The position numbers were made by a program, and so were the translations under genes. From contig NC_017586.1 of assembly GCF_000240165.1 (NCBI RefSeq), forward strand, positions 1,984,001-2,048,000: DNA of 64,000 nt, read 5' to 3'. Of this stretch, positions 1,069-6,765 are shown piece by piece. The DNA comes from Streptantibioticus cattleyicolor NRRL 8057 = DSM 46488. GTDB taxonomy: Bacteria; Actinomycetota; Actinomycetes; Streptomycetales; Streptomycetaceae. Below the pieces are notes generated by a model. It searched no databases, had not been told where the DNA came from, and was given only the letters and a program-made list of their open reading frames with translations. Every line of letters starts with the position of its first letter. Position 1 is the first letter of the stretch.

Positions 1069-1129
1069 GGCCGGCGGCGTCCGGGGCCCGGCGGCCCGCT
1101 CCGTCCGCCCCGGATGCCACACTGCCCGG

Positions 1130-2248
1130 GTGAGCGATGACAGCAACCGGGCCGGGTCGGTGGGGGCGCGTCTTGCCGAGGTGCGGGGGAACGGGGTGGC
1201 GCCGAAGGCGCTGGACGCCCGGGGGATCGCGGCGCTGGCCGCCAACCCGGGGTGCGGGCGGCGGGCGCTGGTGGACACCGCGGGGGTGGACAAGGCCGCG
1301 CTGGCCCGGGCGCTGGGGAGCCCGGCCTCCTTCGGGCAGTCGCGGTTCGCCTTCGGCCGCGGGCACGCCTTCGAGGCCGGGGTGAAGGCGGACGGCTGCC
1401 GGGAACTGCTGCGGCTGCTGGGCGAACGCCTCGGCGCCCCGGAGACCGGCCCGGACGGCGTCCGCCTCCCCGACCTCGCCGCCCCCGGCCCCGCCGGACG
1501 CGCCGAACGCACCCGGCTGGCGCTGCGCGAGGCCACCGAGGCGGCCGGGGCCGACGGCAGTTGGAGCGTGCTCGACCACCCGCTGCTCCCGCTGGACGTG
1601 GCCGGCGCGACCGCCTACGTCGAGCCCGACGCGGTCGTGGTCGCCCCGGACGGGCGCTGGACGGTGGTCGAGATCAAGTCGTTCCCGATCCTGGACGGCA
1701 CCGCGGACCCGGCGAAGGTCGGCGCGGCGGCCCGCCAGGCCGCGGTCTACGTCGCCGCCCTGGAACGCCTGGACGCCGCCGCACCGCGCACCGATGCGCT
1801 GCTGGTCTGCCCCAAGGACTTCTCCAACCTGCCCACCGCCGAACTGGTCGACGTCCGCAGGCAGCTCGCGGTGACCCGGCGCCAGCTCGCCCGGATGACC
1901 CGCATCGAGGATATAACCGCCCGCCTGCCGCGCGGCGCCACGCTCGACGTGCGGCTGCCCGCGCCCCGGCTGGCGGCGGCGCTGGACGCGGTACCCGCCG
2001 CGTACGCCCCGGAGTGCCTGGCCTCGTGCGAGCTGGCCTTCCACTGCCGCGCCCAGGCCCGTTCCGCCGGCTCGGTGACCGTCCTCGGCCGCTCGGTACG
2101 CGGCGAACTCGGCTCGATCGAGACCGTCCCCGACCTGCTCGCCGCCGCCCACGGCCGACACGGCGACCCCGCCGACCCCGCGGTCGCGGCGCTGCGCCGG
2201 GCGGCGGAGCTGCGGGCGCTGGCGCTCGGCGAGGAGGGGCCGGCATGA
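1130..2248 (+). CDS. PD-(D/E)XK nuclease with Cas4/AddB-like iron-sulfur cysteines
   Basis: Probable DNA nuclease. The RecB-type core is seen as a GRGHAFE segment near residue 77, Asp167 in VEPDAVVV, the E-x-K pair Glu181/Lys183 in VVEIKSF, and Gln203/Tyr207 in RQAAVYV. One Cys lies upstream of the core (Cys42, NPGCGRR) and three downstream (Cys296, Cys300, Cys306), the spacing that holds a 4Fe-4S cluster in Cas4, AddB and Dna2. That is family knowledge applied to this sequence, not shown here. The gene overlaps the next by four bases (ATGA), so the two are probably translationally coupled, and a helicase gene follows. The start is GTG; there is no strong ribosome site, but a CACACT hexamer 7 bases upstream fits a leaderless transcript. 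Role in DNA repair or phage defence is inference. Confidence 0.72.
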   Translation: MSDDSNRAGSVGARLAEVRGNGVAPKALDARGIAALAANPGCGRRALVDTAGVDKAALARALGSPASFGQSRFAFGRGHAFEAGVKADGCRELLRLLGERLGAPETGPDGVRLPDLAAPGPAGRAERTRLALREATEAAGADGSWSVLDHPLLPLDVAGATAYVEPDAVVVAPDGRWTVVEIKSFPILDGTADPAKVGAAARQAAVYVAALERLDAAAPRTDALLVCPKDFSNLPTAELVDVRRQLAVTRRQLARMTRIEDITARLPRGATLDVRLPAPRLAAALDAVPAAYAPECLASCELAFHCRAQARSAGSVTVLGRSVRGELGSIETVPDLLAAAHGRHGDPADPAVAALRRAAELRALALGEEGPA

Positions 2249-3804
2249 CGCTCTTCACCACCCTGGCCCGGGCGCAGGCCGTCGCGGCCGGGCGGGCCCA
2301 GCCGGTGGCGACGGTGCGCCACCGGCACCTGTCGGAGCGGCCGATGGTCTTCGTGCCGTTGACGACCGCGGGCGAGGTGGGGGCGCCGCTGGGGGCGATG
2401 GTGGGCACCGACCGCGACGACCCGGCGCTGCTGGTGGTACCCCAGCCGCGCGACCGTACCCTGCGCTTCGCCTTCCTCGCCGACCTGGCCGCGCACCTCC
2501 TGCCCCACCTGTCCGGCTACGAGGACGTGGTGGAGCACGAACCGGGCAAGGAGACCGACCCGGCGACCGGCCGCAAGGTCACCGTGGAGCGCCAACTGTG
2601 CGCCGACGCGCCGCAGTTGATCGTGGCCAACCCGGCCGTGGTGGAGTACGTGCGGCTGCTGGGGCGTTCGACGCGGTTCCGCCGCACCGCCGAGGAGGAC
2701 CCGGCCGCGCCCCATCCGGTGCCGTCCCGGGTGCCGCTGCTGGGGCGGTGGCTGACGCACTACGGGGAACGGGCCCGTACCCCCGGCAGCGCGCTGCTGG
2801 TGACGATGACGCAGTTGCTGGCCCGGCACTGGGCCACCGGGCAGAGCGCGGCCGAGGACCAGCACCTGGGCGCCCTGCTGGCCTGGATCGACCCGCCGGA
2901 CGGACTCGACGGGGCGACCGCGGCGCGGCGCGCGGAGAGCGCCCGGGGCGCCGACGGCCTGCTGCTCACCCCGCCCGCCGGTCCGGCCACCGACCCGGTC
3001 TTCGACAACGTCGCGCTCGCCCCGGCGATGGCCCGGTACGACGCCGCGCGGGAGTCCGGGGGCGACCCGGGCCCCGCCGAGCGGGAGATCCGCGACCTGC
3101 TCGCCGGTCAGCTGCGGCCCACCTGGGACGCCGTCTGGCACGGCGTGGACCTGCTGCGGACGCTGCCGGAGGCGGCGCACGCGGCCGAGCGGTGGAAGGG
3201 CGACCGCTGGTCGTTCACCGGCCACCGGGACCGGGTGCGGGCCGGCGAGCCGCCGCAGCCCCGGCTGGACGACGCGGTCACCGCGGCCCGCAAACTGGCC
3301 GGCCGGGAGACCGCCCAGGCCCGGCTGGACGCCCAGGAGGCGCTGGACGATCCGCTGGTGATGGCGGAGCGGCGGCTGGCCGGGGAGGCGTTCGCGGGCC
3401 GGGTGACCGCGGTGGAGATGGCGTACTCCGAGGGGCGGGTGGCCCGGCCGCGTCCGCTGGTGACGGTGGAGGTGGCCGACCGGCCGCTGCTGGCGGAGGG
3501 GGCCAAGGTCTACCGGGCGCTGCCGGACGGCCGGACCCAGGAGGCGGAGTTCACCGGCGGTACGGCCCCCGGCGCGCTGACGCTGCGGTTGCTGGGCGGC
3601 ATGGGCCGCGGCAAGGTGCCGGACGCCGGTACGGTGCCCGTGGTGGGCGACCAGGTGTGCTGGACGCTCTTCGAGCACGCCCCGCGCGGCGGCCCGGAGC
3701 TGCCGGACGCGGAGGCCACCCCGTGGACGCACGGCGGCCCGTCCGGCCCCGGCGCGGCCACCCCGGAGCCGGCCGACGCCCCGACGGCGGACGACTTTCT
3801 GTGA
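2245..3804 (+). CDS. Conserved-looking protein of unknown family, middle gene of nuclease-helicase set
   Basis: A 519-residue soluble protein that I do not recognise. It has no signal peptide or membrane segment. It starts at ATG 2245 inside the stop of the nuclease gene (ATGA), so co-expression is strongly suggested. The N-terminal half is mixed alpha/beta with a short conserved-looking RHLSERPMVFVPL stretch; the centre (about residues 230-370) is helical and charged; residues about 385-480 contain alternating short hydrophobic strands ending in a Gly-rich GGMGRGKVPD turn and a VGDQVCWTLFE strand, suggesting a small beta-barrel. The last 40 residues are acidic and Pro-rich. No nuclease or ATPase motif is visible. 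It may be an adaptor or specificity subunit for its neighbours; this is inference from position only. Confidence 0.6.
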   Translation: MTLFTTLARAQAVAAGRAQPVATVRHRHLSERPMVFVPLTTAGEVGAPLGAMVGTDRDDPALLVVPQPRDRTLRFAFLADLAAHLLPHLSGYEDVVEHEPGKETDPATGRKVTVERQLCADAPQLIVANPAVVEYVRLLGRSTRFRRTAEEDPAAPHPVPSRVPLLGRWLTHYGERARTPGSALLVTMTQLLARHWATGQSAAEDQHLGALLAWIDPPDGLDGATAARRAESARGADGLLLTPPAGPATDPVFDNVALAPAMARYDAARESGGDPGPAEREIRDLLAGQLRPTWDAVWHGVDLLRTLPEAAHAAERWKGDRWSFTGHRDRVRAGEPPQPRLDDAVTAARKLAGRETAQARLDAQEALDDPLVMAERRLAGEAFAGRVTAVEMAYSEGRVARPRPLVTVEVADRPLLAEGAKVYRALPDGRTQEAEFTGGTAPGALTLRLLGGMGRGKVPDAGTVPVVGDQVCWTLFEHAPRGGPELPDAEATPWTHGGPSGPGAATPEPADAPTADDFL

Positions 3805-3810
3805 TCACAA
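3801..3810. promoter_or_regulatory. 10-bp perfect palindrome at end of middle operon gene
   Basis: TGTGATCACA spans the stop codon of the unknown protein, 141 bases before the helicase start. It could be a short operator for an internal promoter in the 147-base gap, or chance. The rest of the gap (3811-3951) holds no clear promoter and no strong terminator. Confidence 0.2.
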
Positions 3811-3951
3811 CGGACTTTTCATGACCAACTCCGGCCGCCGTCGGCCCAGTTGTCGCCGAGCGGGGACTACCTGGGCCGTCGGCCGGGGAAACATTCCGCT
3901 GGGCCGCCACCAGGCGGCCCGGTCCGCGACCAGTGAGCGAGGACGAGGGCG

Positions 3952-5319
3952 TTGAACGGTGACGGGACCGCGCGGGCCGGCGTGGCGGCGCCGGGGGACG
4001 GCGATCCCGCGGCGGCGGCCGGGGCGGCCACCGAGGCGATCCTGCGGGACGTGCGGTCCGGCACCCACCGCGGCGTGGTGGTCGACTCACCGCCCGGCGC
4101 CGGCAAGTCGACGCTGGTGGTGCGGGCCGCCACCGAACTGGCCGGGGCCGGCGAGCAGGTGATGATCGTCGCGCAGACCAACGCCCAGGTCGACGACCTC
4201 GCCGACCGGCTGGCCACCGCCGCCCCCGAGGTCACCGTCGGCCGGCTGCACGGCAGCGACTCGCCGCCCGACCCGGCGCTCGCCCGCCACCCCTCGGTGG
4301 CCGTCTCGGCCAAGCCGGCCGATCTGCGCGACCGCCAGGTGGTGATCGCCACCGCCGCCAAGTGGGGCTACGTCAAGGACGTCGAGCCGTGGCGGCAGGC
4401 GATCGTGGACGAGGCGTACCAGATGCGTTCGGACGCGCTGCTGCGGGTCGCCGGCCTCTTCGAGCGGGCGCTCTTCGTCGGCGACCCCGGCCAGCTCGAC
4501 CCGTTCAGCGTGGTCGGCGCCGACCAGTGGGCCGGGCTGGCCTACGACCCGTCGGCCAGCGCGGTGGTCACGCTGCTGGCGCACAACCCCGGGCTGCCGC
4601 AGCACCGGCTGCCGGTCTCCTGGCGGCTGCCGGCCACCGCCGCGCCGCTGGTGTCGGGGGCGTTCTACCCGTACACGCCGTTCCGCAGCGGCACCGGCCA
4701 CGGTGACCGGCGGCTGGCCTTCGCGGTGGCCTCGGACGGCGACGGGCCGGACCGGGTGCTGGACGAGGCGGCGGCCGGCGGCTGGGGGCTGCTGGAGCTG
4801 CCGGCCCGGCGCACCCCGCGTACCGACCCGGAGGCGGTGGCGGCGGTGGCCACGGTGGTGCGGCGGCTGCTGGAACGCGGCGGGGTCACCGTCAGCGAAC
4901 GGTCGCCGGAGCCGGTACCGCTGACCGCCGACCGGATCGCGGTCGGCACCGCCCACCGCGACCAGGCGGCGGCCGTGCGCGCCGCGCTCGCCGCGCGCGG
5001 CGTCACCGGGGTCGCCGTGGACACCGCCAACCGCCTCCAGGGCCGCGAGTTCGACGTCACCGTGGTGCTCCACCCGCTCTCCGGCCGCCCCGACGCCACC
5101 GAGTTCCACCTGGAGACCGGCCGCCTGTGCGTGCTCGCCTCCCGCCACCGCCACGCCTGTATCGTCGTCTGCCGCGCCGGCGTCGCCGAACTCCTCGACG
5201 AGCACCCGTCCACCGAACCCGTCAGCCTCGGCGTCACCGTCAAATTCCCCGATGGCTGGGAGGCCAACCACGCCGTCCTCGCCCACCTCGCCGAACACCG
5301 CGTGACGTGGCGCCCATGA
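3952..5319 (+). CDS. SF1B (Upf1/Dna2-like) helicase ATPase
   Basis: Probable DNA or RNA helicase. All core motifs are present in order: Walker A DSPPGAGKST (P-loop Lys52), motif Ia QTNAQVDDL at 75-83, Walker B IVDEAYQM (Asp153/Glu154), motif III VGDPGQLDPF at 176-185, motif IV around SWRLPATAAPLV at 223, motif V RLQGREFDV at 361-369, and a motif VI-like LASRHRHA at 395-402. The DEAY/RLQGxE pattern is that of the Upf1/Dna2 group rather than UvrD. At 455 residues it is a bare helicase core with no accessory domain. The start is TTG with GAGGACGAGGG upstream; an in-frame GTG at 3982 is an alternative. Together with the nuclease two genes upstream it would make a split Dna2-like or AddAB-like pair, which is inference. 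Confidence 0.82.
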   Translation: MNGDGTARAGVAAPGDGDPAAAAGAATEAILRDVRSGTHRGVVVDSPPGAGKSTLVVRAATELAGAGEQVMIVAQTNAQVDDLADRLATAAPEVTVGRLHGSDSPPDPALARHPSVAVSAKPADLRDRQVVIATAAKWGYVKDVEPWRQAIVDEAYQMRSDALLRVAGLFERALFVGDPGQLDPFSVVGADQWAGLAYDPSASAVVTLLAHNPGLPQHRLPVSWRLPATAAPLVSGAFYPYTPFRSGTGHGDRRLAFAVASDGDGPDRVLDEAAAGGWGLLELPARRTPRTDPEAVAAVATVVRRLLERGGVTVSERSPEPVPLTADRIAVGTAHRDQAAAVRAALAARGVTGVAVDTANRLQGREFDVTVVLHPLSGRPDATEFHLETGRLCVLASRHRHACIVVCRAGVAELLDEHPSTEPVSLGVTVKFPDGWEANHAVLAHLAEHRVTWRP

Positions 5320-5459: not shown

Positions 5460-5828
5460 ATGTCCGAGCCGCAGCCGGCTCATCGCGCGTCGGACGGTGC
5501 CCGGTACCGGCCGCGGCGGCCCGCGTCGCTGATCTTCGAACCGCCGGCCCCCGGAGCCGACCCGGAGCACTTCTTCGACCTGGAGTCGATGGACGATCCG
5601 CAGCTGCTGCTGGACCGTTCGACCGAGCTGGCGCTGGCCTTCCGGGCGGCGGCCGACCGGGCCACCGAGTACCAGGCGATGGCGGCGGCGCAGCTGGCCG
5701 ACCCGGGACGGTTCGACCGGCTCACCCTCGGCGCGATCGCCGAGCGGGCCAACTGGTCGGAGGACTACGCCAAGAAGATGGTGGAGTTCGGCGCCGAACT
5801 GCTGCGGCAGGAGCCGCGGCGCGACTGA
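5460..5828 (+). CDS. Conserved hypothetical protein, 122 aa
   Basis: A small soluble protein with no domain I can name. After a basic, Pro-rich N-terminus (1-25) it has an acidic stretch ending in FFDLESMDDPQLLLDRSTEL and then two or three amphipathic helices. The segment LTLGAIAERANWSEDYAKKMVEFGAELL resembles a helix-turn-helix in outline, but too weakly to call. The start is supported by GGAGGG six bases before ATG 5460. It follows the helicase by 140 bases on the same strand; whether it is part of the same transcript is unclear. Confidence 0.6.
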   Translation: MSEPQPAHRASDGARYRPRRPASLIFEPPAPGADPEHFFDLESMDDPQLLLDRSTELALAFRAAADRATEYQAMAAAQLADPGRFDRLTLGAIAERANWSEDYAKKMVEFGAELLRQEPRRD

Positions 5829-5985
5829 GCCGGCCACCACGGGGACCGGAGGGATCCGGCCACCCCGCACGTGCAGATGCACCGGCATCACGTGCCACCG
5901 GCATATTAGCGGGCAAGGGCCGATGTGTCCCGAATTCCCGCCATCCACCGGTCCGGCACCCCGCGCGCCGCTAGATCTGTCCGTC

Positions 5986-6630
5986 ATGAGCGAACGGTTC
6001 TGGGAGACAGGCGACGGCGGCGGGATGCCGGGCACGGCCCGGCGGGGCGGACACGGCGGCCGGGAGGACCACGGCCTGCCCGGCGCCGTGACGCCGGACA
6101 CCGCGGCCCGCCCCGACCCCTTCGCGCACACCGCCCACGTCACCCCGGACGGCGCCGACTGGCTCGCCTCGGCCAGCGCCTTCCCGCGCAGCGTCCAGGC
6201 GCTGTGGTCGGCCCGCCCGGCGCGGGCGAGCGTGCTGCCCTGCGGCACCGTCTTCGACGTGGCCAACCTCCCGGCGCTCTTCGGCCGCCAGGTGCTCGAC
6301 CAGTTGTGGACGGCCGGGCCGGGGTGCGGGCCGGTGTCCGTGCACCGCGGGCGGCTGCTGCTGTTCGCCGCCCCCGGCACCGCCGACCGGCTGCCGTCGC
6401 TGCTGGCCTGGGAGGAGTGGGGCGCCGCGGTGCCGCCGCTGCTGTGCCACGGCCGCGGGGACGTGGTGACCATCCCGCCGCTGGTGCCGGACCCGGCGTG
6501 GGAGGAGTCCGCGGGGCCGGCCCGCTGGGTGGTGGCCCCGGACTCCCGGTACCCGTGGCTGCCCGGCCCCGACGTGCTGCTGTGGGCCGTCCTGCGGGCC
6601 GCCCGCCGGGCCCGCAGCCGCCCGGTCTGA
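5986..6630 (+). CDS. Short Prim-Pol-like domain protein
   Basis: A 214-residue protein resembling the N-terminal part of actinobacterial proteins annotated as bifunctional DNA primase/polymerase. Family-like segments are ARASVLPCGTVFDVANLP, RGRLLLFAAPG, GRGDVVTIPPLVP and RWVVAPDSRYPWLPG. The short Streptomyces forms often lack clear catalytic acidic residues, and no convincing DxD pair is visible here, so enzyme activity is doubtful. ATG 5986 is preferred over GTG 5923, which would add 21 residues of unlike composition. A tRNA gene follows after 62 bases. Confidence 0.6.
   Translation: MSERFWETGDGGGMPGTARRGGHGGREDHGLPGAVTPDTAARPDPFAHTAHVTPDGADWLASASAFPRSVQALWSARPARASVLPCGTVFDVANLPALFGRQVLDQLWTAGPGCGPVSVHRGRLLLFAAPGTADRLPSLLAWEEWGAAVPPLLCHGRGDVVTIPPLVPDPAWEESAGPARWVVAPDSRYPWLPGPDVLLWAVLRAARRARSRPV

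Positions 6631-6692: not shown

Positions 6693-6765
<73 letters not shown>

Follow-up and report, generated by a model that had tools for sequence, protein, structure and literature searches.

A near-universal three-gene operon of the Streptomyces family probably encodes a Dna2-type helicase-nuclease in three subunits

Three neighboring genes near the start of the window (the whole 64-kb stretch of Streptantibioticus cattleyicolor DNA that was analysed) probably encode a helicase-nuclease of the Dna2/Bad type that is divided into three subunits, follows the domain order of Dna2 and serves genome maintenance by processing DNA ends or flaps. Taken together, the genes resemble a Dna2 divided at two boundaries between domains, because their alignments are complementary. 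The structural model of the first protein, a nuclease, aligns with Dna2 residues 24-412, and the profile of the third, a helicase, aligns with Dna2 residues 644-983. IGHMBP2 is likewise shared out, with residues 7-159 matched by the middle protein and residues 205-611 by the helicase. The copy in the window is most likely a vertically inherited DNA-repair enzyme and not a phage defence, since the operon of its relatives usually lies behind a RecA-NDp damage promoter. A search of the open literature, with most subscription journals outside its scope, found no description of this gene set, in agreement with the first-pass annotation, which had proposed an undescribed system.

All three genes lie on the forward strand. 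The nuclease gene (subunit 1; 1130-2248) has a GTG start and encodes 372 residues. The middle gene (subunit 2; 2245-3804) has an ATG start, encodes 519 residues and is translationally coupled to subunit 1 through an ATGA overlap of stop and start. The helicase gene (subunit 3; 3952-5319) has a TTG start and encodes 455 residues. These reading frames and the ATGA coupling of the first two were found where the first-pass annotation had placed them. Stop and start codons overlap in most loci of the three-gene set, and most relatives have a 4-nt overlap before the helicase too, where the window has a 147-nt gap before TTG3952. The interval 3805-3955 holds a 44-codon open reading frame (3821-3955) whose TGA overlaps the helicase TTG.

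When nuclease, middle protein and helicase were searched separately, each was found in an identical set of 59 of 346 Actinomycetes genomes (15 of 127 genera), and no genome carried a subset. The order nuclease-middle-helicase is retained in nearly all loci examined, and nuclease and helicase are separate genes at every one of them. The middle protein occurs in 147 of 150 genomes of the window's family (the Streptomyces family), and the three genomes that lack it also lack the helicase. The set is also found in Streptosporangiaceae, Micromonosporaceae, Nocardia, Amycolatopsis and Actinomadura. In one genus (g77 of family f37; loci L054 and L058), nuclease and middle gene stay together, and the helicase is present at a distance of about 35-50 kb. 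Many Micromonospora loci have no helicase nearby. The first-pass annotation had suggested looking for the gene order elsewhere and had treated the genes as one set; their near-constant adjacency and exact co-occurrence support one functional unit. Two further genes downstream (5460-6630) remain neighbors of the core operon in the family; one encodes 122 residues with no family and the other 235 residues that are weakly Prim-Pol/SCO3374-like. A GGDEF/EAL class found downstream in several families was rejected as evidence of synteny because it is merely a shared domain. The window also holds four tRNA-Lys (CTT) genes, at 6693, 6946, 18320 and 19017.

Subunit 1 is a PD-(D/E)XK nuclease of the RecB/Cas4/Dna2 "iron-staple" type, as its residues and its modelled fold indicate. 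Cys42, Cys296, Cys300 and Cys306, together with Asp167, Glu181, Lys183 and Gln203, are located at the residues first reported for them. Among 40 diverse homologues, with identity down to about 35%, the four cysteines and Asp167 are present in all 40, Lys183 and Gln203 in 39, and Glu181 in 38. The RecB-type catalytic residues and the one-then-three cysteine layout thus hold up as invariant or nearly so, and the cysteine pattern predicts an Fe-S cluster. Sequence libraries gave nothing above chance for this protein, and a profile search of the PDB returned designed-repeat artefacts only. Structure prediction, which had been proposed as a check, gave a model with a pLDDT of 93.5 that matches Cas4 (Z 10.4), lambda exonuclease (8.8), the AddA nuclease (8.7), AdnA (7.9) and Dna2 (7.2), with MGME1 and Exo5 also among the matches, and places subunit 1 in the Cas4/AddAB/AdnAB/Dna2 fold class.

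Subunit 3 is, from its sequence, an SF1B motor of the Upf1/Dna2 type consisting of RecA1 and RecA2. It exceeds the curated cut-offs of Pfam AAA_11 and AAA_12, and UvrD_C_2 is reached only at an E value of 0.13. SMUBP-2 and Dna2 are the best-scoring relatives of the motor, and PADLOC 2.0 gives motor-level matches only. In 36 homologues, full or almost full conservation was seen for the Walker A motif (SPPGAGKST, residues 46-54), DEAY, GDPGQLDPF, TANRLQGRE and SRHRHAC. The first-pass annotation had called this protein a bare Upf1/Dna2-like helicase with all motifs. The motifs were borne out, but the motor is incomplete: only 45 residues precede Walker A, and domain 1B of Upf1 and Dna2 is missing and apparently sited in the middle protein.

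The middle protein had been described as belonging to no known family. That description stands at the level of sequence, as nothing above chance was found in Pfam, NCBIfam, PADLOC or PHROGs, a profile search of the PDB gave nothing, and a viral structure library gave no confident match. The AF2 model (pLDDT 91.4) allows a better reading, with a 1B/stalk part and, tentatively, an RNase H-like domain. Residues of about 342-493 (3268-3723, forward strand) are modelled as a stalk helix and a β-barrel like domain 1B of Upf1, Sen1, IGHMBP2 and Dna2, and the best rows for this region include SETX (Z 8.8), Sen1 (8.3) and IGHMBP2 (7.9). Unrelated six-stranded barrels (FNR, F1-ATPase) score alike in the same list, so that the score leaves the matter undecided and the 1B assignment rests on position and complementarity. 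On those grounds, the C-terminal part of the middle protein appears to be the 1B/stalk that the third gene lacks. Residues of about 31-364 (2335-3336, forward strand) form an alpha/beta and helical region that tentatively resembles the RNase H-like 3'-5' exonuclease domain of one archaeal family-B polymerase; the match (2vwj, Z 8.7, 182 aligned residues, 3.5 Å) is a single row near the noise level. An hhalign comparison with the single-chain TM0106 proteins gave no sequence match, so the RNase H-like reading depends on that one structural row. Assuming that this fold is correct, the domain probably lacks activity, because the catalytic DxE/acidic pair is not conserved in the alignment of the N-terminal part.

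The closest characterised protein to the operon product is Bad, a bacterial DNA2-like enzyme of Geobacillus, in which a single chain carries an Fe-S nuclease, a central domain of unknown function and a 5'-3' motor (PMC7430649). Both have, in this order, an iron-staple RecB-family nuclease, a central conserved domain and an SF1B helicase, at 1245 residues for Bad and 1346 for the three subunits summed; the likening of the central domain to the middle protein relies on the published description of Bad. Bad, however, is one polypeptide that occurs rarely and sporadically beside a DNA methyltransferase, whereas the present system is encoded by three genes and is near-universal in one family. Because it lacks the single-chain feature, the operon is not filed as a member of Dna2/Bad. 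Eukaryotic Dna2 shares the four-Cys nuclease and the order of nuclease, 1B barrel/stalk and RecA1-RecA2, but it is a single chain without the extra RNase H-like region. The Actinobacterial TM0106 family (TIGR03491) combines in one chain a RecB-like nuclease, an RNase_H_2 domain in the equivalent position and an Upf1-like AAA domain, and its helicase is matched by the profile of subunit 3 with a probability of 99.6. It differs in being unsplit, and neither subunit 1 nor the middle protein matches it in sequence; no protein of the window's genome exceeds the curated cut-off of TIGR03491. Genomes that have both this gene set and TM0106 proteins were too few to speak for or against mutual exclusion of the two. 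AddAB, AdnAB and RecBCD also join a nuclease to a motor for end resection, with a related nuclease domain and, in AddB and AdnAB, an Fe-S staple, but their motors are of the UvrD-type SF1A and not of the Upf1-type SF1B found here. Archaea pair Mre11-Rad50 with a nuclease and a motor. The archaeal partners belong to unrelated families (the NurA nuclease and the FtsK-like HerA motor), and SbcCD, the Mre11-Rad50 of bacteria, adjoins the present genes only in accessory copies.

A RecA-NDp (PafBC-type) promoter is common in front of the operon. Its consensus has been published as tTGTCRgtg - 8 nt - TannnT (PMC5656591), the RecA-NDp form has been reported in S. coelicolor (PMC5087735), and a study of S. 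venezuelae reported no mycobacterial PafBC motif from an initial search (PMC9380542). The damage box of the operon is written TTGTCAGTG. Counted as TTGTCRGTG - 8 nt - nAnnnT with at most two mismatches and a loose -10, a box lies upstream of the nuclease gene in 46 of 57 family loci. Since four of the 57 duplicate a record already counted, the distinct loci with a box number 43 of 53; the random-window control gave 1.3%. The box mostly stands 7 nt before a leaderless-type GTG, and although the loci are related, their alignment holds for the box and is lost further upstream. Genome G008 has 55 exact copies of the motif and 3 of its reversed control. One of the 55 precedes this operon, and others precede recA, uvrA, uvrB, ung, pcrA/uvrD, dnaN and genes for a RecD2-like helicase and a DinG/YoaA-type helicase. 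On these counts, the family of the window seems to have the RecA-NDp form. With at most one mismatch, the box is absent upstream of the helicase (0/97), of SbcD (0/27) and of a fourth gene found in accessory copies (0/75). No exact box occurs within the 64-kb window. The corresponding position (1101-1123, forward strand) has a degenerate -35 part (CCGTCCGCC, five mismatches), a spacer of 8 and the -10 CACACT, which ends 6 nt before the leaderless-type GTG of the nuclease. Because of this degenerate -35 part, damage control of the window's own copy is uncertain.

Accessory sister copies of the operon form a second group. In a tree of nuclease and middle protein built by a quick method, the core copies of the family form one clade (SH-aLRT 100), and a separate lineage unites copies from Nocardia, Amycolatopsis, Actinokineospora, Nonomuraea, Streptacidiphilus and Streptomyces. 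Horizontal transfer is suggested by the spread of this sister clade over several families. In the sister copies and in many non-Streptomyces copies, the nuclease is preceded by a fourth gene of about 265-290 codons (L089:2318-3163, L090:6902-7747, L050:4377-5174), whose product has an apparent coiled coil and a winged-helix-like part and matches no Pfam family above cut-off. The fourth gene also occurs in several other families, and in the window's family it was found in only 3 of 61 genomes, two of which are known to carry accessory copies. SbcCD (Mre11-Rad50) adjoins the sister copies in 26 distinct loci (L147-L164 except L152, L170, L177, L186, L210, L067, L070, L071, L089 and L090), either divergently upstream or co-directionally downstream; in the window's genome, SbcD is located elsewhere. 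A type I Wadjet operon lies directly downstream in nine accessory loci (L089, L090 and L147-L153). All nine have a RecA-NDp box with at most one mismatch upstream of jetA (e.g., L090:11861-11883; control 12/2000), which suggests that the Wadjet beside accessory copies is damage-inducible. Other accessory neighbors are Hma-type SNF2 helicase, DUF262 and type III-like genes, and one accessory copy sits on a linear plasmid. In one locus (L069:9148), a type III-like restriction helicase beside an accessory copy is preceded by a RecA-NDp-like box.

The first-pass annotation had offered two roles, end processing and anti-phage action. A complex that degrades invading phage or plasmid DNA, as other nuclease-helicase defence modules do, would suit the Wadjet, SNF2, DUF262 and type III-like neighbors of the accessory copies and the transfer to which their multi-family clade points. 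The lineage of the window is different: it is near-universal in its family and forms one clade, the neighborhoods examined around its copies contain no defence genes, and most relatives have the damage promoter. Subunits 1 and 2 have no match in PADLOC 2.0, and no relatives were found in phages or viral contigs. Defence is thus an unlikely explanation of the operon; it fits the accessory sister copies better than the window's copy, for which the anti-phage proposal is not supported.

The near-universality in the Streptomyces family and the accessory copy on a linear plasmid would also suit a factor for telomeres or replication forks that is peculiar to the linear chromosomes of Streptomyces, but the set extends to the five other groups named above, many of whose members are generally considered to carry circular chromosomes, and we regard such a factor as very unlikely. 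Still harder to credit is an RNA-directed machine, in which an Upf1-like RNA helicase would act with an RNase H-like partner and a nuclease. UPF1 and SETX, both RNA helicases, are among the motor relatives, but SMUBP-2 and Dna2 give the best scores, the fold and Cys staple of the nuclease are of the DNA-nuclease type, and the promoter of the relatives belongs to a damage regulon.

DNA end processing, the other role first proposed, is the likely job of the operon, given a RecB/Cas4-type nuclease with the Fe-S cysteine pattern and a Dna2-like motor. For this Dna2-type enzyme, we infer complex formation, polarity, substrate and repair role as follows. Subunit 1 would act as the Fe-S-stapled nuclease and subunit 3 as the SF1B motor, with movement expected in the 5'-3' direction. 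Subunit 2 would give the motor its stalk and 1B barrel, and its RNase H-like, probably inactive domain may bind DNA or bridge nuclease and motor. The complex would most likely load on a DNA end or 5' flap, where the motor would thread single-stranded DNA and the nuclease would trim it, in end resection or in flap or fork processing. In most of the family, it would be made in response to DNA damage. A wider proposal, possible but on balance doubtful, is that the three-subunit Dna2 with SbcCD is a bacterial counterpart of eukaryotic Mre11-Rad50 and Dna2 in resection. The core copy would then serve damage-induced repair in Streptomyces, and the Wadjet-coupled mobile copies, with their fourth, DNA-binding-like subunit, would complete the destruction of DNA opened by Wadjet.

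Streptomyces are studied for their antibiotics and for their genome instability, and little is understood of how they process double-strand breaks. A near-universal, apparently damage-regulated and seemingly unnamed helicase-nuclease would be a new player in this process. The mobile relatives link Mre11-Rad50 and Wadjet to a Dna2-like enzyme. With the nuclease, 1B/stalk and motor of Dna2 naturally separated into subunits, the operon would make the role of each part directly testable.
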